From Mycobacterium sp. ST-F2 (GTDB lineage: Bacteria; Actinomycetota; Actinomycetes; Mycobacteriales; Mycobacteriaceae), in the NCBI RefSeq assembly GCF_001905655.1, contig NZ_JMHT01000017.1:62001-126000 (forward strand): 64,000 nucleotides of DNA, given 5' to 3'. The position numbers and the translations under genes are program-made. Numbering within the stretch: the first letter of the stretch is position 1; each line of letters starts with the position of its first letter. Positions 5,859 to 56,029 of this stretch are shown here, piece by piece. The notes below the pieces were generated by a model, which was given only the letters and a program-made list of their open reading frames with translations, did not search any database and was not told the DNA's origin.

Positions 5859-7223
5859 CTAGCGGGACTGCTGGCTGCGTCCCGACTGCGAGCGACCCGC
5901 CTGCGAACGACCGCTCTGGGTGCGGCCGGGGGCCTGCAGTCCACCACTCGAACGTCGGCGACGACGCTGCGCCTGGCCTGCGGTCGCGGTCTTGGCCGGA
6001 CGGCTGCCGCCGCGCGGCGCGGGAGCTTCCTTGGGTGCCGGTGCCCGGTACGGTGCGATCTCGCCGACCAGCGCCTGCACCGGCGCCGAATCAGCGACGA
6101 CTTCCTGCGGCCGGGCGGTGATGCCGGCCTTGCGCAGCAGCTGCTGGGCATCCTTGCGCTGCTCGGGCAGCACGACGGTGACGACGTCGCCGGCGCTGCC
6201 GGCGCGGGCCGTCCGTCCCGAACGGTGCAGGTAGGCCTTGTGCTCGGCCGGCGGGTCGACGTGCACGACGAGCTCGACCTCGTCGACGTGGACGCCGCGA
6301 GCGGCGATGTCGGTGGCGACGAGCACGCGCGCCTCGCCGGTGCTGAACGCCGCGAGGTTGCGGTCACGCGCGGGCTGGGACAGGTTGCCGTGCAGGTCGA
6401 CCGACGGCACGCCGGCCTCGGTGAGCTGCCGGGCCAGCTTGCGGGCCTGGTGCTTGGTGCGCATGAACAGGATGCGCCGGCCGGTGCCCGACGCCAGCCG
6501 GTGCACCAGAGCATTCTTCTCGGCCGCACCGGAGACGTGGAACACGTGGTGGGTCATGGCCGGCGGCGGCGCGTCGATCTCGTCGACCGAGTGGGTGATC
6601 GGGTCGGACAGGAAGCGGCGCACCAGCTTGTCGACGCCGTTGTCGAGCGTCGCGGAGAACAGCATGCGCTGCCCGCCGGCGGGCGTCGCCGCCAGAATCC
6701 GGGTGACGCCGGGCAGGAAGCCGAGGTCGGCCATGTGATCGGCCTCGTCCAATACGGTGACCTGCACGGCGTCCAGGCTGACCAGCTTCTGCTTCATCAG
6801 GTCTTCGAGACGGCCCGGGCAGGCGATGACGATGTCCACGCCGCCACGCAGCGCGTCGACCTGGCGGTTCTGTGACACGCCACCGAAGATGGTGGTCACC
6901 TTCAGTCCCACGGCCGTGGCCAGCGGTTCGACGGTCGCGGCGATCTGAGTGGCCAGCTCACGGGTCGGGGCCAGCACCAGACCGGTGGGTCGTGACGGGC
7001 GTCGCGACGTGCCGGCGAGCCGGGCCACCAGCGGGATGGAGAAGGCGAGCGTCTTGCCGCTGCCCGTGCGGCCGCGGCCGAGCACGTCGCGGCCGGCCAG
7101 GGTGTCGGGCAGGGTGCTGACCTGGATGGGGAACGGCGCGGCGATGCCGCGGCCGGCGAGAGAGGCGACGAGCGCCTCGGGGACGCCGAGCTCAGCGAAC
7201 GATGATGATTGTTCTGCAGACAT
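5859..7223 (-). CDS. DEAD-box ATP-dependent RNA helicase, RhlE-like
   Basis: This 454-residue RNA helicase probably remodels RNA or acts in ribosome assembly or RNA decay. It has a Q-motif region (FPIQVSTLP), Walker A GRTGSGKT, motif Ia PTRELATQ, the DEAD box (VLDEADHMADLG), motif III SAT and motif VI HRSGRTARAG. A basic Ser/Gly/Arg/Gln-rich tail follows (repeats of GRSQ at the end), typical of RNA-binding extensions in mycobacterial DEAD proteins. ATG 7221-7223 is preferred; a GTG eight codons upstream is possible. A 409-bp structured gap precedes it, so a long 5' leader is plausible. It is downstream of no obvious operon partner. Confidence 0.92.
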   Translation of the reverse strand: MSAEQSSSFAELGVPEALVASLAGRGIAAPFPIQVSTLPDTLAGRDVLGRGRTGSGKTLAFSIPLVARLAGTSRRPSRPTGLVLAPTRELATQIAATVEPLATAVGLKVTTIFGGVSQNRQVDALRGGVDIVIACPGRLEDLMKQKLVSLDAVQVTVLDEADHMADLGFLPGVTRILAATPAGGQRMLFSATLDNGVDKLVRRFLSDPITHSVDEIDAPPPAMTHHVFHVSGAAEKNALVHRLASGTGRRILFMRTKHQARKLARQLTEAGVPSVDLHGNLSQPARDRNLAAFSTGEARVLVATDIAARGVHVDEVELVVHVDPPAEHKAYLHRSGRTARAGSAGDVVTVVLPEQRKDAQQLLRKAGITARPQEVVADSAPVQALVGEIAPYRAPAPKEAPAPRGGSRPAKTATAGQAQRRRRRSSGGLQAPGRTQSGRSQAGRSQSGRSQQSR

Positions 7224-7632
7224 GGACAAATACAGCCTTTCCGGCACGGAGGGTCGACAATGCCGGCGGCAGTATCGGTCGCCGCGAGAAGTGCTGGTGC
7301 AGATGGACTGACACGGCTCTCAGCCGTTCCACGACGTGATCAGCGGACGCGTCCGGGGAGGGAGCACAGCTGATGTTGTTGATGAGCTTAGTGCCGAACA
7401 CGGCCCGTCTCTGACCACGGCAACCGAAGCGGCCGATTGCGGGCCGAAAAGCCTTGTCCCGCAATCGGTATCACGATGGTGTGATTTCACCCACGATCGT
7501 GTACCGGCGTACCGGAAAATCGACACGCCCGACAAAATTTCGGCAAACGTCCGGTACCGGTCCGGTCACAGTGCGACGATGCGAATCGGGTGCCGATTAC
7601 CGGGGTCGGCGACGTTCGAAGGGGGGCGAGCG
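7224..7632. other. 409-bp divergent intergenic region with several inverted repeats
   Basis: No convincing gene is present between the helicase and the PE-PPE hydrolase. The region holds an 11-bp perfect inverted repeat CCGATTGCGGG / CCCGCAATCGG (7433-7443 and 7458-7468, 14-nt loop). A nested weaker repeat lies around 7472-7502 (GGTG/CACC inside CACGAT/ATCGTG), and clustered ACCGG/CCGGT repeats lie near 7505-7565. These could be a structured leader of the helicase mRNA (minus strand), operators, or both. Confidence 0.5.
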
Positions 7633-9207
7633 ATGCGCACTTTCGGACGCACCATTCCCGCAGCCGTGGCCGTGATGCTGACAGTGCTGAGCACCGTTCT
7701 GCTGGGCGTGGTGTCGATGGTGACGGCCGCGTTCACGCTCGCCGCGACCGCGCTGATCGTCCCGGGCACCGGCACCCCGAACGCCAACGTCGTGACCGGG
7801 TACAAGGAGAACGCGACCGACTACTACATCGCACCGTTCAACCTCAACGGACAACTCCAACCGGTGTGCACCAGCACCAATGGCTGCACGCTGGCGGGTA
7901 TCAACTACCCGGCCCAGTTCTGGCCGATCCCGCTGCCCGGCTGGGGTGGCCTGTCCGGCGCCAAGTGGAACGACTCAACAGGTCAGGGCATCGCCAACCT
8001 GGATGCCACCCTGACGCCGCTACTGCAGACGGCAACGCCCGGGAATCCCGTCATCATCTTCGGCTACTCGCAGGGCGGCAACATCGTCAGCCGCGAGAAG
8101 GCCACCCTCAGCGGCCTCACCCAGGCCCAGAAGGACTCGCTGGCCTTCGTCATGATCGGCAACACCAACCGGCCCAACGGCGGCCTGTTCGAACGGCTGG
8201 CCTTCCTCGGCACCGTGCCGATCCTCGACGTCACCTTCGGCCTGCCGGCACCCACCAATACCGGTATCAAGACCACCGACATCGCGTTCGAGTACGACGG
8301 CGTGTCCGACTTCCCGCTGTACCCGATCAACCTGCTCGCCGACCTCAACGCGATCGCCGGATTCTGGTACACCCACGGCACCTACCTGGCGCCGAACGCC
8401 AACAGCGATCCCGGCGAGATCCCTGATCTCGAGTACACGCCCGAAGAGCTCGACGCTGCGTTGAAGGACCCGGCGAACCAGACCGTCTACGGTGACACCA
8501 CCTACATCACGATCCCGACCAAGACTCTGCCGCTGGTACGGCCGTTCCTGGAGTTCGGCGGCTTCACGCACACCAGCTTCATCGTCAAGCCCCTGGTCGA
8601 CCTGGTCTCCCCCGTGCTGCGCGTGCTCATCGACACCGGCTACGACCGCAGCCTCAGCCCGGGCGTGCCGGCGCCGTTCCGGTTGATCCCGCTGATCAAC
8701 CCGATCACGCTGACGGTGGACCTGGTCAAGGCCGCCGGCGAAGGCGTGAAGGCGGCGATCAGCGACATCACCGGCGGCAAGGTGCAGCTTCCGATCGCCG
8801 CGACCACCCCGGCCCCGGCGCCGACCACCGTCGCGGCCCTGACCGGGTCCAGCGCACCGAAGGCCGGGTCCGCCACCCCGACCGGCGACACCAAGCTTGC
8901 GCCCGTCACCACACCCAAGCTGTCAACGGATCCCAAGGACGCCGACACGAAGATTGCCGACGTCAAGGACAGCGACACCAAGACGACCGACCCGAAGGCC
9001 ACAGATCCCACCCCGGAAACCACCGATCCGAAACAGGACCCGAAGCCGGCCACCGACCCGACCACCAACCAGGGTCCGGCCAAGGACGGCCAGACCGGCG
9101 CCACCGACAAGATCAAGAAGCCGAAGAAAGTCAAGGCCCCCAAGACCCCCAAGCCCGCGAAGCCGGCCGCAGAGCAGGCCGACAAGCCGGCCAAGGCCGC
9201 CGCCTGA
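7633..9207 (+). CDS. Secreted PE-PPE-domain alpha/beta hydrolase with a long charged Pro/Lys/Asp tail
   Basis: This 524-residue protein starts at ATG 7633 behind a G-rich ribosome-binding site (GGGGGG). An N-terminal hydrophobic segment (PAAVAVMLTVLSTVLLGVV) acts as signal or anchor. A PE-PPE/cutinase-like hydrolase domain (about residues 40-330) follows, with the nucleophile elbow GYSQGG (Ser146) and the opening LIVPGTGTPN. This fold is found in mycobacterial esterases acting on lipids or acyl chains. There is no PE or PPE N-terminal domain. The last 150 residues or so are low-complexity, first Asp/Lys/Thr rich, then basic KPKKVKAPKTPKPAKPA, possibly for wall association. It converges on hflX with one base between stop codons. 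Confidence 0.85.
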   Translation: MRTFGRTIPAAVAVMLTVLSTVLLGVVSMVTAAFTLAATALIVPGTGTPNANVVTGYKENATDYYIAPFNLNGQLQPVCTSTNGCTLAGINYPAQFWPIPLPGWGGLSGAKWNDSTGQGIANLDATLTPLLQTATPGNPVIIFGYSQGGNIVSREKATLSGLTQAQKDSLAFVMIGNTNRPNGGLFERLAFLGTVPILDVTFGLPAPTNTGIKTTDIAFEYDGVSDFPLYPINLLADLNAIAGFWYTHGTYLAPNANSDPGEIPDLEYTPEELDAALKDPANQTVYGDTTYITIPTKTLPLVRPFLEFGGFTHTSFIVKPLVDLVSPVLRVLIDTGYDRSLSPGVPAPFRLIPLINPITLTVDLVKAAGEGVKAAISDITGGKVQLPIAATTPAPAPTTVAALTGSSAPKAGSATPTGDTKLAPVTTPKLSTDPKDADTKIADVKDSDTKTTDPKATDPTPETTDPKQDPKPATDPTTNQGPAKDGQTGATDKIKKPKKVKAPKTPKPAKPAAEQADKPAKAAA

Positions 9208-44492: not shown

Positions 44493-47400
44493 TCAGAGGC
44501 GATCTGCAGCCAAAGCGTCGATGATCGATTCACGGTTCGCACCCGGCGTTCCGTGGGCATCACTGGCCTCGTAGGGCGCAGTGCGCGCGCCCGCATACTC
44601 GGGCGCAAGCACCTCCATCTGCTCCATCACCAGCTTGATCGCCGCCGGCTGCTTGTCCGGCGGGTACTTGTACTTGACCAGCAGACGCTTGATGGACGAT
44701 CGGAGTTTGGCCCGAACGTCGTCACGCACCGTCCAGTCGGTCTTGGTGTCGCGCTGCATCACCGCCACCAACTCGCGCGCGATCTGCGCCAGGACATCTT
44801 CTCCCTGGAACTCGACGGCGGATTCGTTCTGGGCGACGGCGTCGTAGAACGCCAGCTCGTCGTGCGACAACGGCGGTGAGAAGCGCTGTCCACGGTTCCC
44901 TTCAGCGGCGACCTCCCGCGCCATTTCGATCAGCTCGGCAATAACCTCAGCCGACGTCAGCTGCTGGTTGGTGTACCGCCGCATGAGCTCAGAAATGCGC
45001 TCGGAGAACGCCCGTTGACGCACCACGTTGCCCTTGGTGGATCGCGTCGCTTCTTCGGTGAGCACCGCGCGCAGCGCTTCGATCGCCAGATGCGGATTAG
45101 TCGCAGACTTGGCCTTGTTCTCGAAGTCAGCATCCAACTCGTCGAGGGACGGCTTCGGCAGACCGGCAGCCTGGTAGATATCGACAATCTCCCCAGATGC
45201 GGTCGAACCCGCAACAAGCGTCGACAGCATGCGTTTGATGTCTTCGGGAATCGGCTTACCCTCAGACTGCCGAAGCTGGGCATCGAACTTGGCCAGGTAG
45301 ATCCGCACCTCTTCGTAGAACCGGACGGTTTGGCGCAGCTTGTCCAGCGTCTCGCTGCCCGCGCAGAGTGCCCATGCCCGGGCTAGTTGGTTGGCCAGCA
45401 ACCGGTACCGCTCACGCAGTGTGGGTTCGCCGTCAGAAACTTGGTTGCCCGGCGTCGCTGGATCGCTGAGGTAGTTGGTCAGGGCGGTGGCGGCCTTCAT
45501 CCAACCGGTTGTCGAAGACGTAGCGGCGATCCGTCGCCAGTCGAATCCGGCACATAGCTCGTCGAGCTGGGCGATGAGTCGCTCGGTGAGTGCCACCGCT
45601 TCGTCGACGTTCTTGCCGACAGGTTTTTCCTTCTGGTCGTCGACGGTGTACTCGGCCAGAGCCGCGTTGAGGTTCTCGACGAGTGGGGCGTAGGCGACCA
45701 GCATCCCGTCCCGTTTTCCACGGAAAGTGCGGTTGACGCGGGCGAGTGTCTGCATCAGCAAGGCACCCTTCAACGGCCGATCCAGGTAGAGCGTATGTAG
45801 CGGCGGAGCGTCGAAGCCCGTAAGCATCATGTCCTTGACGATGACGAGCTGAAGTTCGTCATCGGGGTCCCGAAGGCGTTGCTGAATCGTCTTGTTCTGC
45901 GCCTCGCGCCGCACGTGCTTGGCCACAAGACCCTGGTCCTGCGCGGTACCCGAGTACACGACCTTGATGGCACCCTTGTCGATCGCATCGTCTGCCCACG
46001 ACGGTCGCAGTGCCACAATCTCTTCGTAGAGTCGGGCGCAGATCTCCCGTGTGGCGCCGACGATGAGCGCCTTGCCGGGACTCGAGATGAACTTTTGCAT
46101 CTCCGTAGATCGAACGTCCCAGTGCGCCAGGATGTCTGACGCGAGTGCAGCGAGCCGTTGCGGAGCGCCGTAGACCGCGTTGATGACCGCCACCGACTTC
46201 TCGATCTGCGCGCGTTCGACGTCATCGAGTCCGAGAGTCGCCTCATCAGCGGCTCGGTCGAGATCGTCCTCGGTGATGTCCTCGGCAAAGCCAACCTTGA
46301 TCAGTCGGGGCTCGAAGTAAACAGGAACCGTCGCACCGTCTTTCACTGCGCGAGTCAGGTCGTAGACGTCGATGTACTCGCCGAAGACATCCTTGGTGTT
46401 GCGATCCGAGAACGAAATCGGTGTGCCAGTGAACGCGATGTACACAGCATTCGGCAGTGCGTCGCGGATGTGGCGGGCGTATCCGTCAAGCTGGTCGTAG
46501 TGGCTGCGGTGCGCCTCGTCGACCATGACGACGATGTTGCGCCGGTCTGACAGCAGCGGGTGTTCGCTTCCGGCGTTCCGCTCGGCCTTGGTCAGGTCGA
46601 ATTTCTGCAAGGTGGTGAAGTAGATGCCGCCAGTCGTACGATTGCCGAGCTCGTCACGTAGTTCAGTACGTGAGGTGATTTTGACCGGCGATTCACGCAG
46701 CAGCTGAGAACGATTGAAGGTCTCGAACAGCTGGCTGTCGAGTTCTTTGCGGTCGGTAACGACGATGACGGTTGGGTTCTTCAGCTTCGGTTGCAGCGCG
46801 ACGAGGTGAGCGTAGAGCTCCATCTCCATGGACTTGCCGGAGCCCTGGGTATGCCAGACGACGCCGGCCTTCCCATTGCTCTCGAATGCCTGGACGGTTG
46901 TGCCGATGGCCTTAGTGACCGCGAAATACTGGTGCGGCTTGGCAATTCGCTTGGTCAACCCGTCCGCCTTGGAATCGAACGCGGTGAAATTGCGTAACAA
47001 CTGCAGGAAACGTTCGGGGTTGAACAACCCCTCGATCAGGTACTCCAGTTCGGTGCCGCCGTGTTCGTCGTCGAGGGCGGCGCCGGACTTGACCGGCTTG
47101 CCATCGTCGTCAACGTTCCATGGCGCGAAGTGTTCGAGCGCGGTGAACGGAGTCCCGTACCGAGCGGTGATGCCGTCGCTGATGACGTTGAACGCCGCGA
47201 AGCGGAAGGCCATCGGGAACTCACGCAGATACGTTTGAAACTGGCTGTGCGCCGCAGCCAGATCGGCATGCTTGGACCCGGCCTGCTTGAGTTCAAAGAA
47301 CACCAGCGGCAGCCCGTTGACGAACAGTACGACGTCGAAGCGGCGCTCGTGTTCGGCGGTGCGGACCGTAACCTGTTGCACCGCAAGCAGTTCATTGTCT

Positions 47401-47762
47401 TCAGGACGATGACCGACCAGCCGGATGGTCGGGTTCTGCTCCAAGCCGTCCGCGTCGATGTAACTGATGCCGCGGTAGCCGCCCACCAAATAGTCGTGCA
47501 GGCGGTGATTCTCCTGCATGGGGTCTTGTGATGCAGGCTGGGCAATCGCCGCAAGAGCCTGCTCCAAATACTCAAATGGGACACCCGGGTTCAGGGTCCG
47601 CATGCGCGCGAGCGTTCGACCCTTGAGTACCAGGTCATCCCAGGCATCGCGGCCATCGTCGGTTCCCGGCGCGATCTGAGCGCCCTTGAGCGGCAACCAT
47701 TCTTGCCGGCCGAGAGCCTCTAGCGCGAGTTGCTCCCAGTCCGCTTCGCTGAACATGCTCAT
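44493..47762 (-). CDS. hsdR: HsdR, type I restriction enzyme R subunit
   Basis: This 1089-residue ATP-dependent restriction subunit cleaves unmodified DNA after translocation. The N-terminal endonuclease has the PD-(D/E)xK residues Asp143 (RFDVVLF) and Glu157/Lys159 (VFFELKQ). The SF2 motor has QGSGKS (306-311), VDEAH (414-418), FTGTPIS and the GFDAPPLHTLYLDRPL region. A C-terminal helical domain binds the methylase. ATG overlaps the YhcG stop as ATGA. It is the last gene of a six-gene operon starting at 54434. No frameshift is seen. Confidence 0.95.
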   Translation of the reverse strand: MSMFSEADWEQLALEALGRQEWLPLKGAQIAPGTDDGRDAWDDLVLKGRTLARMRTLNPGVPFEYLEQALAAIAQPASQDPMQENHRLHDYLVGGYRGISYIDADGLEQNPTIRLVGHRPEDNELLAVQQVTVRTAEHERRFDVVLFVNGLPLVFFELKQAGSKHADLAAAHSQFQTYLREFPMAFRFAAFNVISDGITARYGTPFTALEHFAPWNVDDDGKPVKSGAALDDEHGGTELEYLIEGLFNPERFLQLLRNFTAFDSKADGLTKRIAKPHQYFAVTKAIGTTVQAFESNGKAGVVWHTQGSGKSMEMELYAHLVALQPKLKNPTVIVVTDRKELDSQLFETFNRSQLLRESPVKITSRTELRDELGNRTTGGIYFTTLQKFDLTKAERNAGSEHPLLSDRRNIVVMVDEAHRSHYDQLDGYARHIRDALPNAVYIAFTGTPISFSDRNTKDVFGEYIDVYDLTRAVKDGATVPVYFEPRLIKVGFAEDITEDDLDRAADEATLGLDDVERAQIEKSVAVINAVYGAPQRLAALASDILAHWDVRSTEMQKFISSPGKALIVGATREICARLYEEIVALRPSWADDAIDKGAIKVVYSGTAQDQGLVAKHVRREAQNKTIQQRLRDPDDELQLVIVKDMMLTGFDAPPLHTLYLDRPLKGALLMQTLARVNRTFRGKRDGMLVAYAPLVENLNAALAEYTVDDQKEKPVGKNVDEAVALTERLIAQLDELCAGFDWRRIAATSSTTGWMKAATALTNYLSDPATPGNQVSDGEPTLRERYRLLANQLARAWALCAGSETLDKLRQTVRFYEEVRIYLAKFDAQLRQSEGKPIPEDIKRMLSTLVAGSTASGEIVDIYQAAGLPKPSLDELDADFENKAKSATNPHLAIEALRAVLTEEATRSTKGNVVRQRAFSERISELMRRYTNQQLTSAEVIAELIEMAREVAAEGNRGQRFSPPLSHDELAFYDAVAQNESAVEFQGEDVLAQIARELVAVMQRDTKTDWTVRDDVRAKLRSSIKRLLVKYKYPPDKQPAAIKLVMEQMEVLAPEYAGARTAPYEASDAHGTPGANRESIIDALAADRL

Positions 47763-48811
47763 GGTTCTCCGTCCTCGGCCAGCTCGGCTTCGAGTTGTTC
47801 GATGCTCGGTAGGCCCGATTCCAGTTCGGCGGGCAGGCTTTCAGTGATCGCGGTCTTCCACTCGGCGACGCCGATCGGCATGGTGTAGCCCCGCAGGGCG
47901 TACTCGGCGACCACGTTGTTCTTCGTCTTGCACAGCAGCAAACCGATGGTGGGCTTGTCATCGCCATGCCTGAATTTGTCGTCGATCGCGGCCATGTAGG
48001 TGCCGAGTTGGCCGATGTAACCCGGCTCGAAGTCACCGACCTTCAACTCGATGACGACGTAGCACCGCAGCCGCAGATGGTAGAAGAGCAGATCCAGGTA
48101 AAAGTCCGCATCACCGACCTCAAGGTGCACCTGGCGCCCGACGAACGCGAATCCCTGACCAAGTTCGAGCAGGAACTTCTCGACGTGAGCGGTCAGCGCA
48201 TGTTCGAGGTCTCGTTCCCGGCGGATGTCGGCGTTGCCGACGAAGTCGAAGAGGTACGGGTCGCGCGTCGACTGCTGAGCCAAGTCGGAGTCTGCCGGTG
48301 GCAGGGTATTGGCGAAGTTGGAGATGGCCTTGCCAGCACGCCGGTGCAACTGTCCTTCGATGTGGTGCACCAGGACATTGCGGCTCCAGCCTTGGTCCAT
48401 GGCACGCTCGGCGTACCATAGCCGCACGTCAGCAGCGTCGAGCTTCTCCAGCAACGCGATGTGGTGGTACCACGGCAATCTTGCAAGCGGTGCTTGCAAG
48501 ATTGCGTTCTCCGACCAGACCGCGGCGAAGGTTCGCATGTATCTGAGGTTGCGGGGCGAGAACCCCTTGGCGCCCGGGAACCGGTCACGCAGGTCGGCCG
48601 CCAAGCGATCGACGACCCGGGCGCCCCAGCCCTCGAACTCCATACGCGCGACGATTTCGCTACCAACCTGCCAGTACGTGGCGACCAATTCTTGGTTGGC
48701 AGCGGCGATGGCACGCTGACGTCCAGCCTGGACGCGACCCGCAACCGCGTCGAGTAGTTCGGGGTACCAATCCGGGATTGGAGCCGGACGCCGATCGTCA
48801 CCCGGCGACAT
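47759..48811 (-). CDS. YhcG/DUF1016 family PD-(D/E)xK nuclease
   Basis: This 350-residue protein has an N-terminal DUF1016 domain (ELVATYWQVGSEIVARMEFEGW; FSPRNLRYMRTFAAVW; PWYHHIALLEKL). The C-terminal nuclease domain (QVHLEVGDADFYLDLLFYHL; YVVIELKVGDFEPGYIGQ) has Asp and ELK catalytic residues. Such proteins occur beside type I RM genes and are thought to process DNA ends or junctions; their role in restriction is not settled. The coding sequence overlaps both neighbours (14 bp with the nucleotidase, 4 bp with hsdR). Confidence 0.92.
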   Translation of the reverse strand: MSPGDDRRPAPIPDWYPELLDAVAGRVQAGRQRAIAAANQELVATYWQVGSEIVARMEFEGWGARVVDRLAADLRDRFPGAKGFSPRNLRYMRTFAAVWSENAILQAPLARLPWYHHIALLEKLDAADVRLWYAERAMDQGWSRNVLVHHIEGQLHRRAGKAISNFANTLPPADSDLAQQSTRDPYLFDFVGNADIRRERDLEHALTAHVEKFLLELGQGFAFVGRQVHLEVGDADFYLDLLFYHLRLRCYVVIELKVGDFEPGYIGQLGTYMAAIDDKFRHGDDKPTIGLLLCKTKNNVVAEYALRGYTMPIGVAEWKTAITESLPAELESGLPSIEQLEAELAEDGEP

Positions 48812-49802
48812 CAGCCAGCTCCGGTTCTAGTGCGCCGTGAGGTGGAAACGCGACATCTGTGTTCGCCACCGATTTCGCGATGTTGGCGACGCCGTACGGG
48901 ATATGTACGCCGGCGATGTACTCGACCGCGCCATCGAGGTGCACCTGTTGATCATCGAAGAAGATATGTGGGCGAAGAACTTTCAGGACTTTCGACTTAT
49001 CGATGCCGCCGAGGAAGAAGGCGTCGTTGACGTTGACACCCCACTCGCTCATGGAATGGACCGGCCGTTCGTGGGCGGGTGCGTTCCGTGCCGTGATCAA
49101 TGAGATCCGGAGCCGCGGCAAGTACGACGGGTCGCCGATCCTGCGCTCCTCTTCGAGGGTTTGAATACGGTTCAGATCCGCCAGCAGCGGCTGCAGTAGA
49201 CCGGGAGCAAGCGCCACACGACTGTTCTGGTCCTCATGCTCGAAGTACTCCTCGATTCCTTCAGCTTCCCGATACACCCGCTCCGAATGATCATCTGCTA
49301 GAACACCATCGAAGTCGAATGCCACGCGAAGCGTAGGGTCAGCATCGTCGTAGGTCGCGGACGAGGGCAGCACATGGCCCGCGGGGAATCCCGCCTTGAT
49401 AGCCGCATCGACATCGCCCCGATTTCCGGTGAGGAACAGTGACATTTCGAACGCCTCGATGTAGGCGTGGGGGGATTGGCCTTGCGTGAACACCGATCGG
49501 GTGATGCCCAAACCGTGAGCCCTGACCGACCGCATCACCCGCAACCCGGTCATCGGATCGTTGTGCGACAAGATGATTACTTCAACAAGTGGATTGCCGG
49601 GGCGGAGATCGTTGAGGTTCACCAGGCGTTGGATGAACGGGAACGCGACGCCAGGTTGCAGGGTTTCGTCGATCCGCTCGTCTTGGTAGACGCGGTACTT
49701 CGCTTCACCGTGCTGTTTGAAGTAGGCGTCTGACTCCGAGAGGTCAAAGAGTGCGCTGGAGGCGACTCCCACAACCAGGCGGTCATCGAGGTTGTACGGC
49801 AT
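48798..49802 (-). CDS. Cytosolic 5'-nucleotidase I (NT5C1-like) inside the RM operon
   Basis: This 334-residue protein has strong similarity to eukaryotic cN-I nucleotidases: VGVASSALFDLSESDAYF, PGVAFPFIQRLVNLND and VEVIILSHNDPMTGLRVM. The HAD motif is AFDFDGVLADD (Asp163, Asp165), and LRPHIFFDDQQVHLDGA lies near the end. The family dephosphorylates nucleoside 5'-monophosphates such as AMP. It begins directly after the hsdS stop (no gap) and overlaps the YhcG gene by 14 bp, so it is embedded in the RM operon. A role in nucleotide depletion or in recycling degraded phage DNA is inference. Confidence 0.9.
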   Translation of the reverse strand: MPYNLDDRLVVGVASSALFDLSESDAYFKQHGEAKYRVYQDERIDETLQPGVAFPFIQRLVNLNDLRPGNPLVEVIILSHNDPMTGLRVMRSVRAHGLGITRSVFTQGQSPHAYIEAFEMSLFLTGNRGDVDAAIKAGFPAGHVLPSSATYDDADPTLRVAFDFDGVLADDHSERVYREAEGIEEYFEHEDQNSRVALAPGLLQPLLADLNRIQTLEEERRIGDPSYLPRLRISLITARNAPAHERPVHSMSEWGVNVNDAFFLGGIDKSKVLKVLRPHIFFDDQQVHLDGAVEYIAGVHIPYGVANIAKSVANTDVAFPPHGALEPELADVAG

Positions 49803-50954
49803 CTAAACCATCTCCTCGACGATCGATTCTGCCGTTCGTACTGCGAGCTTTCCCGACATCAACAGTGGCAATAGTTGATCGCGCGTTCGTACCAACCTGT
49901 CATTCTCAATCCGAGTCGCCTCGAATATCGTTATCAGGCTGTTCTGCACTTCACCACAGCGTCGTTGATCACTAATTGACAATAGAGGCAACGTTAGTGA
50001 GCGGACGTCGCGAAGACTGACGTACGGCGCCATGTCGCTCTTATTCATCAGCGTCGCCGCCTGACGTTGCAGATCATCGCTCCGAAACCATCCACTTAGG
50101 TAGCCGGGGTCAACCTGGCAAGCATCTGTTACTCGAAAAAAACAGACCTGCGGGCTATAAACGACGGGTTCGACCGCGTCAGCGACGACAGCCACTCTCC
50201 CCACGGTTCCCTTGGTCGTGAGCACGATGTCGCCAGGCCGCGATGCTTTCGACCCGATCTGCCGTGAATAGTCGCTCGAGACATAGTCCCCGCCGCTCGG
50301 ATATAGATACGAATCCCGCACGTCGCCCGCCCGCAAGATCCGTAACCCGGGACGTCCGTGCTCAATCTTTTTCGTCCTGTAACCGTCACTGAACTCGATC
50401 GCCCTGATATCCGCCAACTCTCCGATAGTCAACATCCGTGACTCATTCGCCGCCACGGCCTCAAGAAAAAGAGTCCCAGCAAGATCTAGTAACGCTTGCG
50501 CGATTCTGTCGTTCACGGTGAGCTTGTCGTCAAGCGCAGCAAGTATGCTCGCGATCGACCTCTGAACCGTGACAGGCGGCCGCAGCACAGGAATGTTCTT
50601 CAGAAAGTTACGATTCAGGGACGGCTGAGCGCTACCGGAATTGAAGCCGGTAAAGTCGATCGTCTGCAACAATCGGAAAACCCACTGAGAGTCGTTTCCT
50701 TTGAAGTCCTTTACGAACAGACACGTATTCAGTGGCCAGTATGCACCTGCGACGTAAGTCGCAGTGCCGATTGCTGCGCCACTTCGTCCAATCGCGACAC
50801 CTGGGCCGTCATAGGCTGCGCGATCGTGTGTTCCAGTGATACCGAACGATCCGATAACAGGTACGTCCCCAGGATTCCTCTCGGAAGCGGGCAGATCGTG
50901 CCCACGTTGAAGTTCCACGACGTCCTCGAACTGCACTAACTGCCACTCATCCAT
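49803..50954 (-). CDS. hsdS: HsdS, type I RM specificity subunit
   Basis: This 383-residue protein has two target-recognition domains. TRD1 runs from MDEWQLVQFEDVVELQRG to NFLKNIPVLRPP, and TRD2 from MLTIGELADIRAIEFSDGYR to SLRDVRSLTLPL. Each is followed by a conserved helical spacer (SIASILAALDDKLTVNDRIA; RIENDRLVRTRDQLLPLL). It recognises a bipartite DNA site. ATG 50952-50954 overlaps the hsdM 3' end by 8 bp. Base composition in the TRDs is visibly more AT-rich than in neighbours, as expected for diversifying specificity genes. Confidence 0.93.
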   Translation of the reverse strand: MDEWQLVQFEDVVELQRGHDLPASERNPGDVPVIGSFGITGTHDRAAYDGPGVAIGRSGAAIGTATYVAGAYWPLNTCLFVKDFKGNDSQWVFRLLQTIDFTGFNSGSAQPSLNRNFLKNIPVLRPPVTVQRSIASILAALDDKLTVNDRIAQALLDLAGTLFLEAVAANESRMLTIGELADIRAIEFSDGYRTKKIEHGRPGLRILRAGDVRDSYLYPSGGDYVSSDYSRQIGSKASRPGDIVLTTKGTVGRVAVVADAVEPVVYSPQVCFFRVTDACQVDPGYLSGWFRSDDLQRQAATLMNKSDMAPYVSLRDVRSLTLPLLSISDQRRCGEVQNSLITIFEATRIENDRLVRTRDQLLPLLMSGKLAVRTAESIVEEMV

Positions 50955-52557
50955 CGAGCCGCTCCAACTGTTCCCGAACGACCTGCTCCAACCGAGCCGA
51001 CTCGTCAAACGCCGCAAGCAGTTCTGTCTTCAGTCGTGCGATCTTCTCTTCGATCGGCTCGCCATCGTCCTCGACTTCGGCAGCACCGACATACCGACCT
51101 GGCGTCAGCGCATAATCGGCGTCCTTGATCTCCGCCAACGTCGCCGACTTACAGAAGCCCGGAACATCTTCGTAGACAACACCCTTCGCCGCAGCCGAGG
51201 AAGATCCACGCCACGCATGGAAGGTGTCGCCAATCTTCACAATGTCGTCATTCGACAGCGCACGCTCGGCGCGGTCGACCATGTAGCCCATCTCTCGGGC
51301 ATCGATGAACAGCACTTGCCCGGTGCGATCGACAGACCCCTGTTTGCCCGCCGCCTTGTCCTTGGCAAAGAACCAGACGCAAACCGGAATACCGGTGCTG
51401 CGGAACAGTTGGGTTGGCAGTGCGATCATGCAGGACACCAGATCAGCTTCGACAATCTGGGCCCGAATCTGGCCTTCTCCGTTGGAGTTCGACGACATCG
51501 ACCCGTTGGCCATAACCACGCCGGCCTTACCGCCGGGTGCCAACTTGTACAGGATGTGCTGGATCCAGGCGTAGTTGGCGTTGTTGGCCGGCGGCACCCC
51601 GTACCGCCATCGAGGGTCTTCCTCGTTGCGCGACCAGTCCTTGATATTGAACGGCGGATTGGCCAGTACATAGTCCATCTGGGTCTCGGCGTGCTGATCA
51701 CGGGCGAAGGTATCGCCCCAGCGCGCGCCGAGGCCCTTGTTGTCGATGCCGTGGATAGCGAGGTTCATCTTCGCCATGCGCCAGGTCTCCTCAATGGACT
51801 CCTGGCCATACACCGCAATATCTTTCGGGTCGCCGTCGTGCTCGTAGATGAAGCGGTCGGTCTGCACGAACATGCCGCCCGAACCACAGCACGGGTCATA
51901 CACCCGGCCCTTCGACGGCTCTAAGACCTCGACCAGGACTCGCACCACGCTCGGCGGCGTGAAGAACTCTCCACCCCGTTTGCCTTCCGCGCGGGCGAAG
52001 TTCCCGAGGAAGTACTCGTACACCTCGCCCATCAGGTCGCGTGCGCGACCGTCGCCCTGACGACTGAACCGCGCGCTGTTGAACAGGTCGATCAGCTCGC
52101 CGAGTCTGCGCTGATCGATGTTGTCTTTGTTGTAGATGCGCGGGAGCGTGCCACCCAGCGTCGGGTTGGCCTTCATCACGGCGTCCATGGCCTCGTCGAT
52201 CAGCTGACCGATGGTCTTGGCGTCGCGGCCTTTCGCGTTCTCGGCAAGGAACGTCCACTGCGCGGTCGGTGGCACCACGAAGACGCCATAACCCTGGTAC
52301 TCCTCAGGGTCGTCGATCAGATCTTCGATCTGATCTGCTTCCATACCGTCGGCCACCAGCTCCGCCCGAATCGCCTCGCGCCGTTCGTCATACGCATCCG
52401 AGACGTACTTCAGGAACACCAGGCCCAGGATCACGTCTTTGTACTGGCTGGCGGACAGTGACCCACGGAGTTTGTCCGCGGCCTTCCACAGCGTGTCCTT
52501 GAGTTCCTTCATGGTCGACGGCGCCTGGGGCTCGTCGGCCTTCTTACGGGGTGGCAT
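50947..52557 (-). CDS. hsdM: HsdM, type I RM N6-adenine methyltransferase
   Basis: This 536-residue methylase protects host DNA by m6A. The HsdM N-terminal helical domain is near residues 15-160. The SAM motif is DPCCGSGGMF (221-230) and the catalytic motif ANPPFNI (300-303 NPPF). The C-terminal helical tail (KIARLKTELLAAFDESARLE) contacts HsdS. ATG 52555-52557 overlaps the upstream stop by one base (TGATG). All catalytic motifs are intact. Confidence 0.95.
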   Translation of the reverse strand: MPPRKKADEPQAPSTMKELKDTLWKAADKLRGSLSASQYKDVILGLVFLKYVSDAYDERREAIRAELVADGMEADQIEDLIDDPEEYQGYGVFVVPPTAQWTFLAENAKGRDAKTIGQLIDEAMDAVMKANPTLGGTLPRIYNKDNIDQRRLGELIDLFNSARFSRQGDGRARDLMGEVYEYFLGNFARAEGKRGGEFFTPPSVVRVLVEVLEPSKGRVYDPCCGSGGMFVQTDRFIYEHDGDPKDIAVYGQESIEETWRMAKMNLAIHGIDNKGLGARWGDTFARDQHAETQMDYVLANPPFNIKDWSRNEEDPRWRYGVPPANNANYAWIQHILYKLAPGGKAGVVMANGSMSSNSNGEGQIRAQIVEADLVSCMIALPTQLFRSTGIPVCVWFFAKDKAAGKQGSVDRTGQVLFIDAREMGYMVDRAERALSNDDIVKIGDTFHAWRGSSSAAAKGVVYEDVPGFCKSATLAEIKDADYALTPGRYVGAAEVEDDGEPIEEKIARLKTELLAAFDESARLEQVVREQLERLDG

Positions 52558-54434
52558 CAGTTTCCTCTCTGCGGTGCATCTGCACCGACGGTCATGGGTG
52601 CGGCGTCGAGGGTCAGGGCTCCCGCGGCGACGCCGTCGATCAATGCGCTGGTCAAGTCTTTTGCAGCGGCGGCTCTCTGCCGGAGCTCACGCTCGAAGGC
52701 ATCCACCTCAGCCAGCGCCTCTTCGAGTCGTTGTGCTTCTGCGCCGGTCATTACTGGAACCGACCAGCTCTGCCACTCCGATGGCGCTGCAGGCAGTCGG
52801 TTGATCGCGGCGGCCAGTAGTCGCGGCCCGATCTCCGCAGTCGCCTCAAGTCGAAGAATACGGGCCGGGGACGCCACCATCGACCCACCGCGCACGTCCA
52901 CCCAGGCCTGCGGTCGCGGATGCTCCACGAACACAACATCGCCAGGATTGGTACGGGCCGATCGCGGATAGCGTTGCTCGGCGTCGACGGGATCAAAGCG
53001 GGCGGCCCCCGATACAGGCTCCGGCAAAACGTTGACGGTGCCGTTGGGATCCGCGAAGGCCAGGTCAATCCGGTTGCCTCGCTTAAGAGTCAGCTTTCCG
53101 TCCGCCCTCAACTGGCCGAGTGACCGCTGTGCGACCTGAAGCCGTCCGGGAGACGGCTGCACGAGAACGTCCAAGGGCGCCAGCGGCACGCTGGTGGTCA
53201 GCGTCGCGGCGTGAACCGCTTCGACATGATTCCCGGTGTTGAGCAGCCTCATCCGCGGTGGTTGCACACCGCGTGGAACGAGAGCGCCACCGGCCAAAAT
53301 CGTCGACACGTCGCCGAGACGGCCGTAACGGAATGCCCTACCTGATTCACCCGACAACGCCGCCGCAACGTCGGCAGCCACATCGTCGTTCGCAATAGTG
53401 TCGGCAGCGCACAGATCTCCCACCACAGGGCGCTGCCGACGAGCGTCGCCCAGACAAACCCAGAGTGCCAAGCTCTGTCGATGCGCCTCACGCCAGTAGC
53501 CGCGCGGAAGCCGAAGTGCGGCAACCACATTCTCGATACGAAGCACACTTGCCCGCCTGCCCTGCAGCGGCCCGGTCAAGTCGTCGGCGAGGATTGACGC
53601 CGGCCCGACGACGATCGCGATATGACCTGCCTCCAAGTCAAGGACCACGTCGTCCACCGCGTCGAGCACATCGGCCGGTTCGCGACCGACAACTGACGTG
53701 AATGAGAGTAATGTCGGCCGCGATGGTTCGCCCAGTTGCACACCGCGAATGAGAGCGCGGCGTGCGATACCCCGCTCGGTCGTCGTGATTGCGGTAGCGG
53801 CCTCGCCGGCGACGTCGAGGGACAACTCACTGCCATCCACACTCAGCGCCACACCGTCTCCGCCGAGATAAACAACACACGCGCTGACGACGCTCGCAAT
53901 CAAATCCGTTGCAGCAGAAGACAGATTCCGCGCAGCCTCCCTCCGGCCGAGCTGCCCTTCCTCTACCCGTTGCAAGGCGTCGACGGCGCCGAATGACGCC
54001 GCCAGAAGCTGGTCTGTGTAGTCGAGGACCGCATCAGCGGCATGGAGACGACTGAGCTCACGCAACAGGATGCGATCATCCGGGTCGCATTCCGCGGCAC
54101 GCCGCACCCGGTAGGCATGCGAGGTGCCGGCCAGATCCTCACCGGTAAGGACATGCCAAGCCAACAACGTCACGACATCCTCAAGCGCCGCCTCGATGGG
54201 TACAGCGATTGCCGGAGCGTCATCGACAACATCTGGGTTGTTGCCCCGGCCGGTCCGCTTGAGGTACTCAACGACGTCGGCTACGTCGAACCGATCTTGA
54301 CCATCAACCCGCTCGATGGCGGTAGGAAAGGGATGAGACACGCCGCGAACAAGCGGTCGATTTCGCCATGTGCTGACAACCGCGCGGCGTACCTTGGCGA
54401 GATCGGCCATGTCCTGCAACGTCATCGTCGGCAT
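52557..54434 (-). CDS. Degenerate N6-methylase-like protein fused to a specificity (TRD) domain, RM-associated
   Basis: This 625-residue protein starts at ATG 54432-54434 behind GGGAGGTG. A short helix-turn-helix (MTLQDMADLAKVRRAVVSTW) begins it, as in actinobacterial N-6 DNA methylases. The middle keeps methylase-like segments (VVLDLEAGHIAIVVGPASIL; NVVAALRLPRGYWREAHRQS), but I find neither a DPxxGSG SAM motif nor NPPY/F. Residues of about 440-625 look like an HsdS TRD plus coiled coil (TNPGDVVFVEHPRPQAWVDV; LEEALAEVDAFERELRQRAA). It is first in the RM operon. It is probably catalytically dead and may act as a regulator or an alternative specificity module. Confidence 0.75.
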   Translation of the reverse strand: MPTMTLQDMADLAKVRRAVVSTWRNRPLVRGVSHPFPTAIERVDGQDRFDVADVVEYLKRTGRGNNPDVVDDAPAIAVPIEAALEDVVTLLAWHVLTGEDLAGTSHAYRVRRAAECDPDDRILLRELSRLHAADAVLDYTDQLLAASFGAVDALQRVEEGQLGRREAARNLSSAATDLIASVVSACVVYLGGDGVALSVDGSELSLDVAGEAATAITTTERGIARRALIRGVQLGEPSRPTLLSFTSVVGREPADVLDAVDDVVLDLEAGHIAIVVGPASILADDLTGPLQGRRASVLRIENVVAALRLPRGYWREAHRQSLALWVCLGDARRQRPVVGDLCAADTIANDDVAADVAAALSGESGRAFRYGRLGDVSTILAGGALVPRGVQPPRMRLLNTGNHVEAVHAATLTTSVPLAPLDVLVQPSPGRLQVAQRSLGQLRADGKLTLKRGNRIDLAFADPNGTVNVLPEPVSGAARFDPVDAEQRYPRSARTNPGDVVFVEHPRPQAWVDVRGGSMVASPARILRLEATAEIGPRLLAAAINRLPAAPSEWQSWSVPVMTGAEAQRLEEALAEVDAFERELRQRAAAAKDLTSALIDGVAAGALTLDAAPMTVGADAPQRGN

Positions 54435-54506
54435 ATTCACCTCCCCAAGGCCGATTAGCTCCAGCTCAACGTAAGCCTCGGTCCATCTGCGGTCAATGAG
54501 CATCAC

Positions 54507-54524
54507 TGATAAGCCCGCTTATCA
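54507..54524. promoter_or_regulatory. 18-bp inverted repeat between the divergent RM operon and coiled-coil nuclease-like gene
   Basis: TGATAAGC-CC-GCTTATCA has perfect 8-bp arms. It lies 73 bp upstream of the RM operon start and 87 bp upstream of the divergent gene, the only long symmetric element in this gap. It is a probable operator for a dimeric regulator; the HTH protein starting at 54434 is one candidate. Confidence 0.65.
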
Positions 54525-54610
54525 GATTCAATCATTGTCGATACGAGTCGATTGGCAGCACTCTTGCGTCACCCGCCGGAACCAACCGGCACTCACCGCA
54601 AGGAGTAGCC

Positions 54611-56029
54611 ATGAGCAACCCGAACACCGCGCACTTGGACGTCGCCGCCAACGCCGTCGTCATCAACCGGCTGACCGTCCAGGACAAAGACCTCACCCGT
54701 GAAGCGCAGCGCTGGACGACCGGGGAACGCGGACCCGTCGTCGATGACGCCGACGTCCTCACAGCAGCCGACATGTCCGCCTTCGTGACCGAAGCGCTCA
54801 AGATCGGCGCCCACGCGCTGTCGGCCACCGGCCAATCCCAGGACTCCCGTGCCCTCGAACGAATGATCAAAGAGGTCGGCGACAAGACCGCGGCGACATC
54901 GGTTCAGGCAGCCGAACTGACCGACCGCACCGTCAAGGACGCCACCAAGACCATGACGAAGGCCGCCGAGGATGCGAAGAAGGCGATCGTCGAGGCCGAC
55001 AAGACCAGCCGCAAGGAGTTCACCGATTCGGTGGCCGCGGCGAAGACCGAACTGAGCACCGAAGTCCGCCGGATCTTCGCCGGCGACAGCCCCGAACTGC
55101 TCGAGAAGCTCCAACCGCTGCTCGACAAGTTCGGCGCTGACCTGGATGCCAAGAGCTCGGCCAGTATCACCGAAGTTCTGGCCAAGGCGGTCAAGCAGTT
55201 CGATCCGACTGACCCGACCTCTCCGATGGCCAAACACACCGCGGGTCTGGAAGCACGTCAACTCCAGCTGACCGAGCTGATCGGCAAGAACCACGCGACC
55301 ATCGCCCAGAAGGTGGACGAACTCGGCGTGGCGCTCAAGGTCCAAGCTGCGCAGGACAAAGTCAGCAAGGTGACGCCGATCAAGGGCGACACTTACGAGA
55401 ACCAGGTCAACATCGTGTTGGCCGAGGTCGCGGCGGGCCTTGGTGATGAGTACACCGATACCCGTTCCACCGTTGGGCACCTGCCCCGGTCCAAGAAAGG
55501 CGACGGCCTGCTCACGGTCGACGGCGGCCTCGCACGCGTGGTGATCGAAATGACGGACTCGGCCCGTGCGGGGTGGACCGAGTACCTGGACGAGGCCGAG
55601 CGCAACCGACAGGCGGCGGCATCGCTCGGCCTCGTCCGAACCACCGACCAGAACGGGGGCCGCTCGATCCGGGTGCTCGGGTCGCGGCGAATCGTGCTCG
55701 CGTTCGATCCGACTTCCGACGACCCCGATCTGGTGCGCACCGTCGTGTTGTTGCTGCGAGCCGCAGCCGTGGCCGCCGCCACGCGTCACGGTGCCGAACA
55801 GTTGTCCACCGCTGAGGAGAAGATCACCGCGGCCGTCGCCCAGTTGGCCCGCATCGACGACATCAAGAAGGCGGCGAGCTCCATCCACAAGAACGCCGAC
55901 AAGATCGAGAGCGGCTGCACCGCAGTCACTTCTGGTATCCAGCGGCTGCTGTCGGAGGCTCTCGCGGCACTGGCGGACGTGCAATCCGCTTCGGACATCA
56001 CCGATACGCCCGGCGACGCCGTCGCCTGA
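54611..56029 (+). CDS. Coiled-coil protein with RmuC/DUF2130-like nuclease-type domain
   Basis: This 472-residue protein starts at ATG 54611 behind AAGGAG. Residues of about 90-250 are a long Ala/Lys/Glu coiled coil (DRTVKDATKTMTKAAEDAKK; LQLTELIGKNHATIAQKVDE). Residues of about 255-400 fit a PD-(D/E)xK-type pattern (KGDTYENQVNIVL; SKKGDGLLTVDG; RVVIEMTDSARAGW), but the usual ExK reads EMT, so activity is uncertain. Similar actinobacterial proteins are often labelled Fis-family regulator, a label the sequence does not support. It is divergent from the RM operon and shares its promoter region. Confidence 0.75.
   Translation: MSNPNTAHLDVAANAVVINRLTVQDKDLTREAQRWTTGERGPVVDDADVLTAADMSAFVTEALKIGAHALSATGQSQDSRALERMIKEVGDKTAATSVQAAELTDRTVKDATKTMTKAAEDAKKAIVEADKTSRKEFTDSVAAAKTELSTEVRRIFAGDSPELLEKLQPLLDKFGADLDAKSSASITEVLAKAVKQFDPTDPTSPMAKHTAGLEARQLQLTELIGKNHATIAQKVDELGVALKVQAAQDKVSKVTPIKGDTYENQVNIVLAEVAAGLGDEYTDTRSTVGHLPRSKKGDGLLTVDGGLARVVIEMTDSARAGWTEYLDEAERNRQAAASLGLVRTTDQNGGRSIRVLGSRRIVLAFDPTSDDPDLVRTVVLLLRAAAVAAATRHGAEQLSTAEEKITAAVAQLARIDDIKKAASSIHKNADKIESGCTAVTSGIQRLLSEALAALADVQSASDITDTPGDAVA

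Follow-up and report, generated by a model that had tools for sequence, protein, structure and literature searches.

A methylase-like protein that may control a type I restriction operon with exchangeable cargo in Actinomycetes

The stretch of DNA analyzed here (the window, 64,000 nucleotides from Mycobacterium sp. ST-F2) carries a six-gene type I restriction operon, in which the first gene, gene 1 (G1), is probably the controller. G1 encodes a methyltransferase-like protein that lacks catalytic motifs and would bind as a dimer, through a helix-turn-helix (HTH), to an inverted repeat at its own promoter. By doing so it would control, and most probably activate, the operon, the defense cargo embedded in it and a divergent gene, here called gene D. 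The conserved unit across Actinomycetes is gene 1, hsdM, hsdS, a slot of variable content, and hsdR. A profile scan of genome contigs with G1 gave 77 loci from many Actinomycete genera, among the best 80 of 112 confirmed matches. The gene directly after G1 is hsdM in 75 of the 77, the broken operons of loci L059 and L069 included (L094 is cut off). Where the contig extends, hsdS is next, followed by the slot and then hsdR. At L056 (9992-21851), G1 and hsdM are separated by about 7 kb of other sequence.

For counting, loci with identical HsdM were merged (151 to 137), as were those with G1 identical over the C-terminal 400 residues (107 to 94); near-identical strains stay in. A survey of the genus Mycobacterium found a close hsdM in 86 of 297 genomes, and 48 loci were read, the window included. 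The 38 genus hits outside these 48 align from residue 99-115 onwards only, as in the orphan group.

The candidate operator, CTGATAAGCGGGCTTATCAG, is the only site in the 5.9 Mb genome of the window at one mismatch or fewer. An inverted repeat of the form 5-N6-5 precedes G1 in 93 of the 94 non-duplicate loci, and is perfect in 89. The perfect half-sites are GATAA (75 loci), GTTAA (9), GTTTA (2), GAGAA (2) and GACAA (1), and the repeats with one mismatch are GGTAA/TTATC (2), GATAA/TTAAC (1) and GATAG/TTATC (1). The repeat is also found by a palindrome finder that is blind to sequence (8-bp arms, 4-base center): perfect arms were present in 43 of the 94 loci, all at the operator repeat, and 7 or 8 arm matches in 70, with 67 at the operator repeat (other palindromes occur in L024, L056 and L082). 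On shuffles the same finder returned 0.11% for perfect arms and 5.7% for 7-8 matches. As background, 319 of 66,400 random windows drawn from the same loci contain GATAA-N6-TTATC, true sites counted in. A partial check found the site in all 19 non-duplicate G1 loci reached via hsdM (17 GATAA, 2 GGTAA/TTATC; L132, which was reached through G1 itself, would make 20), and L115, excluded for its low score, has GATAA-N6-TTATC too. In the 297 genus genomes, the exact 18-bp site occurs 19 times in 18 genomes, 16 times at a G1 operon (one with a broken G1), whereas the same site taken backward, as a control, occurs in none. In three genomes, exact operator-like sites are seen away from any G1 or hsd gene: L184 (7458), L185 (6369) and L186 (7111). 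The operator of L055 combines one GATAA and one GTTAA half-site, and that of L132 lies 53 bp upstream of the predicted G1 start.

The HTH of G1 likely reads this operator. All 12 loci with serine or threonine at residue 40 and alanine at residue 43 of the recognition helix have GT half-sites (one of them single-sided), and none of the 81 other loci does. Among the 621 columns of the alignment, those of residues 43 and 40 are the most informative on the half-site (0.90 and 0.85; the next column has 0.63). On a G1 tree that was built without the HTH, the helix residues and the half-site each show six changes. In the rarer classes, GAGAA accompanies the helix RHVV in both loci, and GTTTA accompanies RQAVTN in both. 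In short, as would be expected of an autogenous HTH regulator, G1 has at its promoter a conserved operator whose half-sites vary in step with the recognition helix, with three pairs on well-supported branches. The half-HsdS-like domain of G1 was considered as another operator reader, as a dimer of half-S domains could read a bipartite palindrome. It was set aside because the two columns most informative about the half-site fall in the HTH, but it may provide an extra contact.

The operator has a fixed place with respect to the promoters. In the window the predicted G1 promoter is TTGACC-17-TACGTT, with 33 nt from the -10 to the G1 ATG, and the center of the operator is near -54, upstream of the -35. 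Across loci, the distance from the core to TANNNT peaks at 34 bp (39 loci), 33 bp (25) and 32 bp (17), while 100 shuffles gave at most 6 at any single distance. On the other side of the operator, 43 of the 90 loci that could be scored have a relative of gene D standing divergent to G1 as its neighbor. At 11-13 bp past the core on this side, the 44 loci with gene D have T in 35, T in 25 and G in 38. The mirror -10 (A35, T39) has its A and T in 28 and 29 of these 44 loci, and in 35 and 37 of the 49 loci without gene D; the window has a weak -10 on the D side. We infer activation from the place of the repeat, which is directly upstream of the -35 and keeps a constant distance to the promoters that mirror each other on its two sides: such a fixed, mirrored and non-overlapping position would be more typical of activation than of repression. 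Beyond the operator, the divergent side is also a second variable slot, occupied elsewhere by a SAVED gene with HNH (L033, 8414-9553, minus strand), a gene with pPIWI_RE domains (L045, 1527-2846, minus strand) or an SMC/AAA ATPase (L043, 5420-8026, minus strand).

The G1 protein has no match in Pfam, PADLOC or NCBIfam in scans of the window's proteins. It is about 620 residues long, and its predicted fold consists of an HTH, an HsdM-like body and a half-HsdS-like domain with a long C-terminal helix; dimerization is also predicted. Motif I (PxxG[S/T]G) is found in 0 of 94 loci and motif IV ([N/D/S]PP[Y/F/W]) in one (L095, a chance match), and none of 48 aligned G1 rows, the window's G1 among them, has either of the two methyltransferase motifs. 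We reject an active methylase because the catalytic motifs are missing. A previous sequence-only reading had labeled gene 1 a pseudo-methylase, and the predicted fold and the missing motifs I and IV bear this out. The HsdM proteins of G1 loci, the window's included, have motif IV in 77 of 77 cases and motif I in 76 of 77.

G1 is kept or lost with hsdR. Of the 125 loci on the HsdM tree, 84 have an intact G1 together with an intact HsdR, and in 28 each of the two is absent or broken; G1 occurs without HsdR in one (L055), HsdR without G1 in none, and 12 loci are at contig ends (in L032, L056 and L084, HsdR runs off the fetched stretch and was scored as intact). Many of the tree loci cannot lack G1 because they were found through it. 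The 50 loci that were reached by hsdM, the window among them, comprise 20 with both genes, 27 with neither and 3 at contig ends. In eight independent pairs that differ in HsdR on well-supported branches, G1 differs in the same way in seven, in the opposite way in none, and not at all in one (sign test, p 0.016). Since G1 is the first gene of the operon and hsdR the last, a single deletion sparing hsdMS cannot account for the joint loss. In this clade the pseudo-methylase always goes with hsdR: no hsdR without G1 was found among the 113 loci scorable for both. Remnants on the way toward orphan methylases are seen, of G1 in L099, L159 and L161 and of HsdR in L104, L112 and L162. The operator is absent in 29 of 31 loci without G1, and the two that keep it have a broken G1. 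In L059 and L069, G1, hsdR and the divergent gene are all broken with the operator kept; in L059 YhcG is broken too.

In the mechanism that we envisage, G1 dimers would use the HTH to contact the operator, and would in this way govern the two divergent promoters. From the sequence, we infer that this binding is regulatory: it would either raise (more likely) or hold back (less likely) expression of the restriction operon, the embedded cargo and gene D. The HsdM/S-like body may serve to dimerize G1 or to sense the restriction machinery. Cargo is gained and lost in the slot, and would inherit control by G1.

Other roles for G1 have to be weighed. It is possible, if clearly less probable than activation, that G1 is an autogenous repressor that uses the same operator to hold the restriction operon low until released. 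Regulators of defense islands are often repressors, and one of them, RptR, serves a type I operon, as described in PMC12255303. A C-gene relative upstream of the type I hsd locus of Mycoplasma gallisepticum also appears repressive in the account of PMC12707154. The G1 operator, however, does not cover the -35 or the -10; it sits upstream of the -35, and its distance to the promoters mirrored on either side is fixed. We think it unlikely that the main role of G1 is structural, as a pseudo-M/S partner within the restriction complex that HsdR needs in order to act, with DNA binding secondary. The predicted HsdM/HsdS-like fold would fit such a part, and so would the presence or loss of G1 along with HsdR. 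But in 18 Mycobacteriaceae the HTH is the best-conserved domain of G1 (71% mean identity vs. 60-65% elsewhere) and it co-varies with the operator. The half-HsdS-like domain, at 64% identity vs. 29% and 19% for the recognition domains of HsdS from the same operons, is conserved while HsdS varies, and so does not track target specificity; for the same reason, it is unlikely to read the same target as HsdS. Somewhat less likely again is a more elaborate version of control, in which a duplicated methyltransferase-specificity protein has turned into a sensor and transcription factor. The dead HsdM/S part would act as a decoy, responding to the condition of the restriction machinery or to the DNA mimics that phages deploy against restriction; the HTH would then fire the two divergent promoters such that restriction, cargo and the nuclease-like gene D are induced together.

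The sequence-only reading had instead taken the six genes for one composite defense system, combining modification, restriction, end processing and nucleotide hydrolysis. The overlapping or touching junctions speak for it, as does the fact that both inner enzymes are PADLOC defense candidates, YhcG matching PDC-S02 (476.6 bits over 11-347) and the nucleotidase PDC-S08 (430.7 bits over 1-308), each over nearly the full profile length. We reject it because of cargo turnover, and would give it hardly any probability. In 83 scorable loci, the slot between hsdS and hsdR is empty in 43 and holds YhcG in 18, a Schlafen/AlbA-type gene in 9, a 5'-nucleotidase in 5, nucleotidase plus YhcG in 4, an unknown gene in 3 and a GmrSD-type gene in 1. 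The labels are partly hand-entered (L064 and L067 were called Schlafen-type by size and kinship, without a scan of their own), and the count excludes L050, L055, L056, L078, L084 and L095 as unclear and L025, L045, L046, L080, L093 and L109 as cut off. The slot of L050 has a PIF1-like helicase matching PDC-S48. On the HsdM tree the slot changed about 23 times, 10 of them among 21 Mycobacteriaceae rows, a number that is slightly high as L060 and L063, identified later, were under a separate label in that count. Accessory genes vary even between otherwise alike hsd operons: 12 pairs with HsdM 93-96% identical hold different cargo. Nor is the six-gene order conserved across genomes. G1 and hsdR are intact in 18 of the 48 genus loci, and the full set of six is present in only 4 of these operons; 10 have YhcG alone (three truncated), 2 the nucleotidase alone, 1 a Schlafen-type gene and 1 an unknown gene. 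YhcG is truncated in the slot of L024, L028 and L148, as though the cargo were decaying in place. The class survey found relatives of the 5'-nucleotidase in 12 of 394 genomes, with 2 in this operon type (the window and genome G290). The other 10 loci showed no hsd gene in the fetched stretch (which in L139 ends just past the gene), and so the nucleotidase was rejected as a dedicated restriction partner; seven neighbors from seven of these loci matched no defense family. In sum, the 5'-nucleotidase and YhcG are likely separate defense cargo, with expression under the G1 switch. The composite-system reading was wrong but the observation behind it was right, and G1 is the part of the operon most worth study.

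Several points weigh against control by G1 as proposed here. Three of the 19 exact sites are away from G1, and one locus of the 94 (L024, whose start is uncertain) has no recognizable operator. The half-site classes other than GATAA were defined post hoc on the same loci. Independent co-variation pairs on well-supported branches number just three, all in the same direction, which is not significant (p 0.25). Normalizing the information by column entropy leaves residue 43 in first place but moves residue 40 down to eighth. Pfam HTH_17 is matched by just 6 of 48 G1 relatives. The kinship of G1 with HsdM rests on predicted structure, because comparison of their hidden Markov models gave a weak alignment only. 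On the D side, TANNNT is not enriched in loci with gene D. The position of the operator is the one ground on which activation would be preferred to repression. As G1 is in one operon with hsdM and hsdR, a simple delay of restriction behind modification is not implied. The association with restriction has its exceptions too. In L055 (9947-21830), where G1, hsdM and hsdS are intact, the gene after hsdS encodes 593 residues and there is no hsdR in the next 7 kb, and L132 (genome G311) has a lone G1 (6970-9021) with no hsd gene within the fetched 19 kb. Finally, L118-L120, type I loci outside the clade, have hsdR without G1; G1 is therefore confined to one branch of type I systems.

Table 1. Features of the operon and its upstream region (positions in the window)
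Feature	Position	Strand	Support
Gene 1 (G1): predicted helix-turn-helix, degenerate HsdM-like and half-HsdS-like protein, likely operon controller	52557..54434	-	
hsdM, N6-adenine methyltransferase subunit	50947..52557	-	PF02384, PF12161; motifs I and IV present
hsdS, specificity subunit	49803..50954	-	PF01420; PADLOC Specificity_I across nearly full profile
Cargo: 5'-nucleotidase family protein	48798..49802	-	PF06189 (E 1.9e-117); PADLOC PDC-S08
Cargo: YhcG/DUF1016 with PD-(D/E)XK nuclease domain	47759..48811	-	PF17761, PF06250; PADLOC PDC-S02
hsdR, restriction/translocation subunit	44493..47762	-	PF04313, PF18766, PF11867; TIGR00348
Predicted -10 of G1 operon, TACGTT	54468..54473	-	TANNNT 32-34 bp past core in 81/93 loci
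Predicted -35 of G1 operon, TTGACC, 17 nt before -10	54491..54496	-	TTG 11 bp past operator core in 18/93 loci
Operator, perfect inverted repeat CTGATAAGCGGGCTTATCAG; core GATAA-N6-TTATC at 54508-54523	54506..54525	.	Sequence
Predicted -35 of gene D, TTGTCG, mirroring position of G1 -35	54535..54540	+	T, T, G at 11-13 bp past core in 35, 25, 38 of 44 loci with gene D; exact TTG in 21/44
Divergent gene D: predicted coiled coil and PD-(D/E)XK-like domain	54611..56029	+	Model, fold comparison; opposite side of operator

The genes of the operon all lie on the minus strand, from 54434 down to 44493 (Table 1). The six-gene order noticed earlier, with an overlap or zero gap throughout, is confirmed: read from the sequence, the junctions are in order a 1-nt overlap, an 8-nt overlap, no gap, a 14-nt overlap and a 4-nt overlap. 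The nucleotidase and YhcG genes do sit inside the restriction-modification genes, between hsdS and hsdR. The operator and promoter upstream of G1 and the divergent gene D were not part of that description. Genes 2-6 are backed by Pfam and PADLOC, and hsdR by NCBIfam also. By these matches genes 2, 3 and 6 form a type I restriction-modification set, with an HsdM having motifs I and IV, an HsdS, and an HsdR having a helicase-like motor. The set is predicted to be a methylation and ATP-dependent cleavage system of type I. For hsdS, the ATG at 50954 was our choice of start, the longest frame opening at a TTG at 51017. A GTG start for G1 at 54506 is unlikely because homologues among the matches listed have about 625 residues and begin to align near residue 25 of the longer frame, and because the predicted promoter falls within the added stretch. 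The operons closest to the window's are from Mycobacterium and Mycolicibacterium. The window's own genome has two more hsdM-type genes elsewhere (L002 and L003), one of them on the same contig.

A 2025 review remarks that there is surprisingly little information on the transcription of type I restriction operons (PMC12707154). As a candidate for a dedicated controller, G1 has a readable operator, is present in many Actinomycete genera and is kept or lost with hsdR. It would reduce the question of type I control to one protein and one 20-bp site, which can be tested directly. The swapping of unrelated defense genes within one operon may be explained too, as the slot would come with a switch already in place. 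The two recognition-helix residues that change along with the half-site offer a small DNA-recognition code for study.

Our search, which did not cover most subscription papers or bioRxiv, found no published case of a type I operon controlled, by way of a recognition code, by a methylase-like protein that lacks catalytic motifs. That defense genes can be embedded within other defense operons is an established idea (PMC12255303, PMC10855318, PMC12988326). PDC-S02 and PDC-S08 are such embedded phage-defense candidates, put forward on guilt-by-embedding (Payne et al., 2024, preprint, as cited in PMC10855318 and PMC12988326). The window's YhcG and nucleotidase match these models, whereas the pseudo-methylase controller matches no PADLOC model.

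Among known regulators of restriction, the C proteins are small stand-alone HTH proteins. Their targets are type II systems, but a relative has been reported upstream of the Mycoplasma gallisepticum type I hsd locus mentioned above (PMC12707154). They would share with G1 a regulator gene ahead of the restriction genes, an operator by its own promoter and autogenous control. Unlike them, G1 is a protein of about 620 residues with an HsdM/HsdS-like body rather than a small stand-alone HTH, and its locus has a single symmetric operator between mirrored divergent promoters.

A fused HTH is found in certain methyltransferases, among which the EcoRII enzyme methylates cytosine at position 5. The SsoII and Ecl18kI enzymes are cytosine-5 methyltransferases according to PMC3978073. 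M.SsoII, M.Ecl18kI and M.EcoRII are described as type II methyltransferases that repress themselves (PMC12707154). What they would share with G1 is an HTH joined to a methyltransferase fold, in a protein that regulates the system to which it belongs. G1 differs in that motifs I and IV are missing, that its predicted fold is M/S-like as in type I enzymes and that a separate HsdM with intact motifs adjoins it. A dual-function repressor joins an HTH to an active methyltransferase; in G1 the fusion is predicted and the motifs are absent.

RptR, described from Gammaproteobacteria, represses the type I RRDM island of enteropathogenic E. coli, which has its cargo in the hsdS-hsdR slot (PMC12255303). 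By that account, its gene is, as is G1, the first of a type I operon with hsdS-hsdR cargo, and in both cases regulator and operator are conserved together. RptR is of only 79 residues, and its three 6-bp palindromes of the TAGCTA type overlap the -10 (PMC12255303). G1 thus differs from it in size, in predicted fold and in operator.

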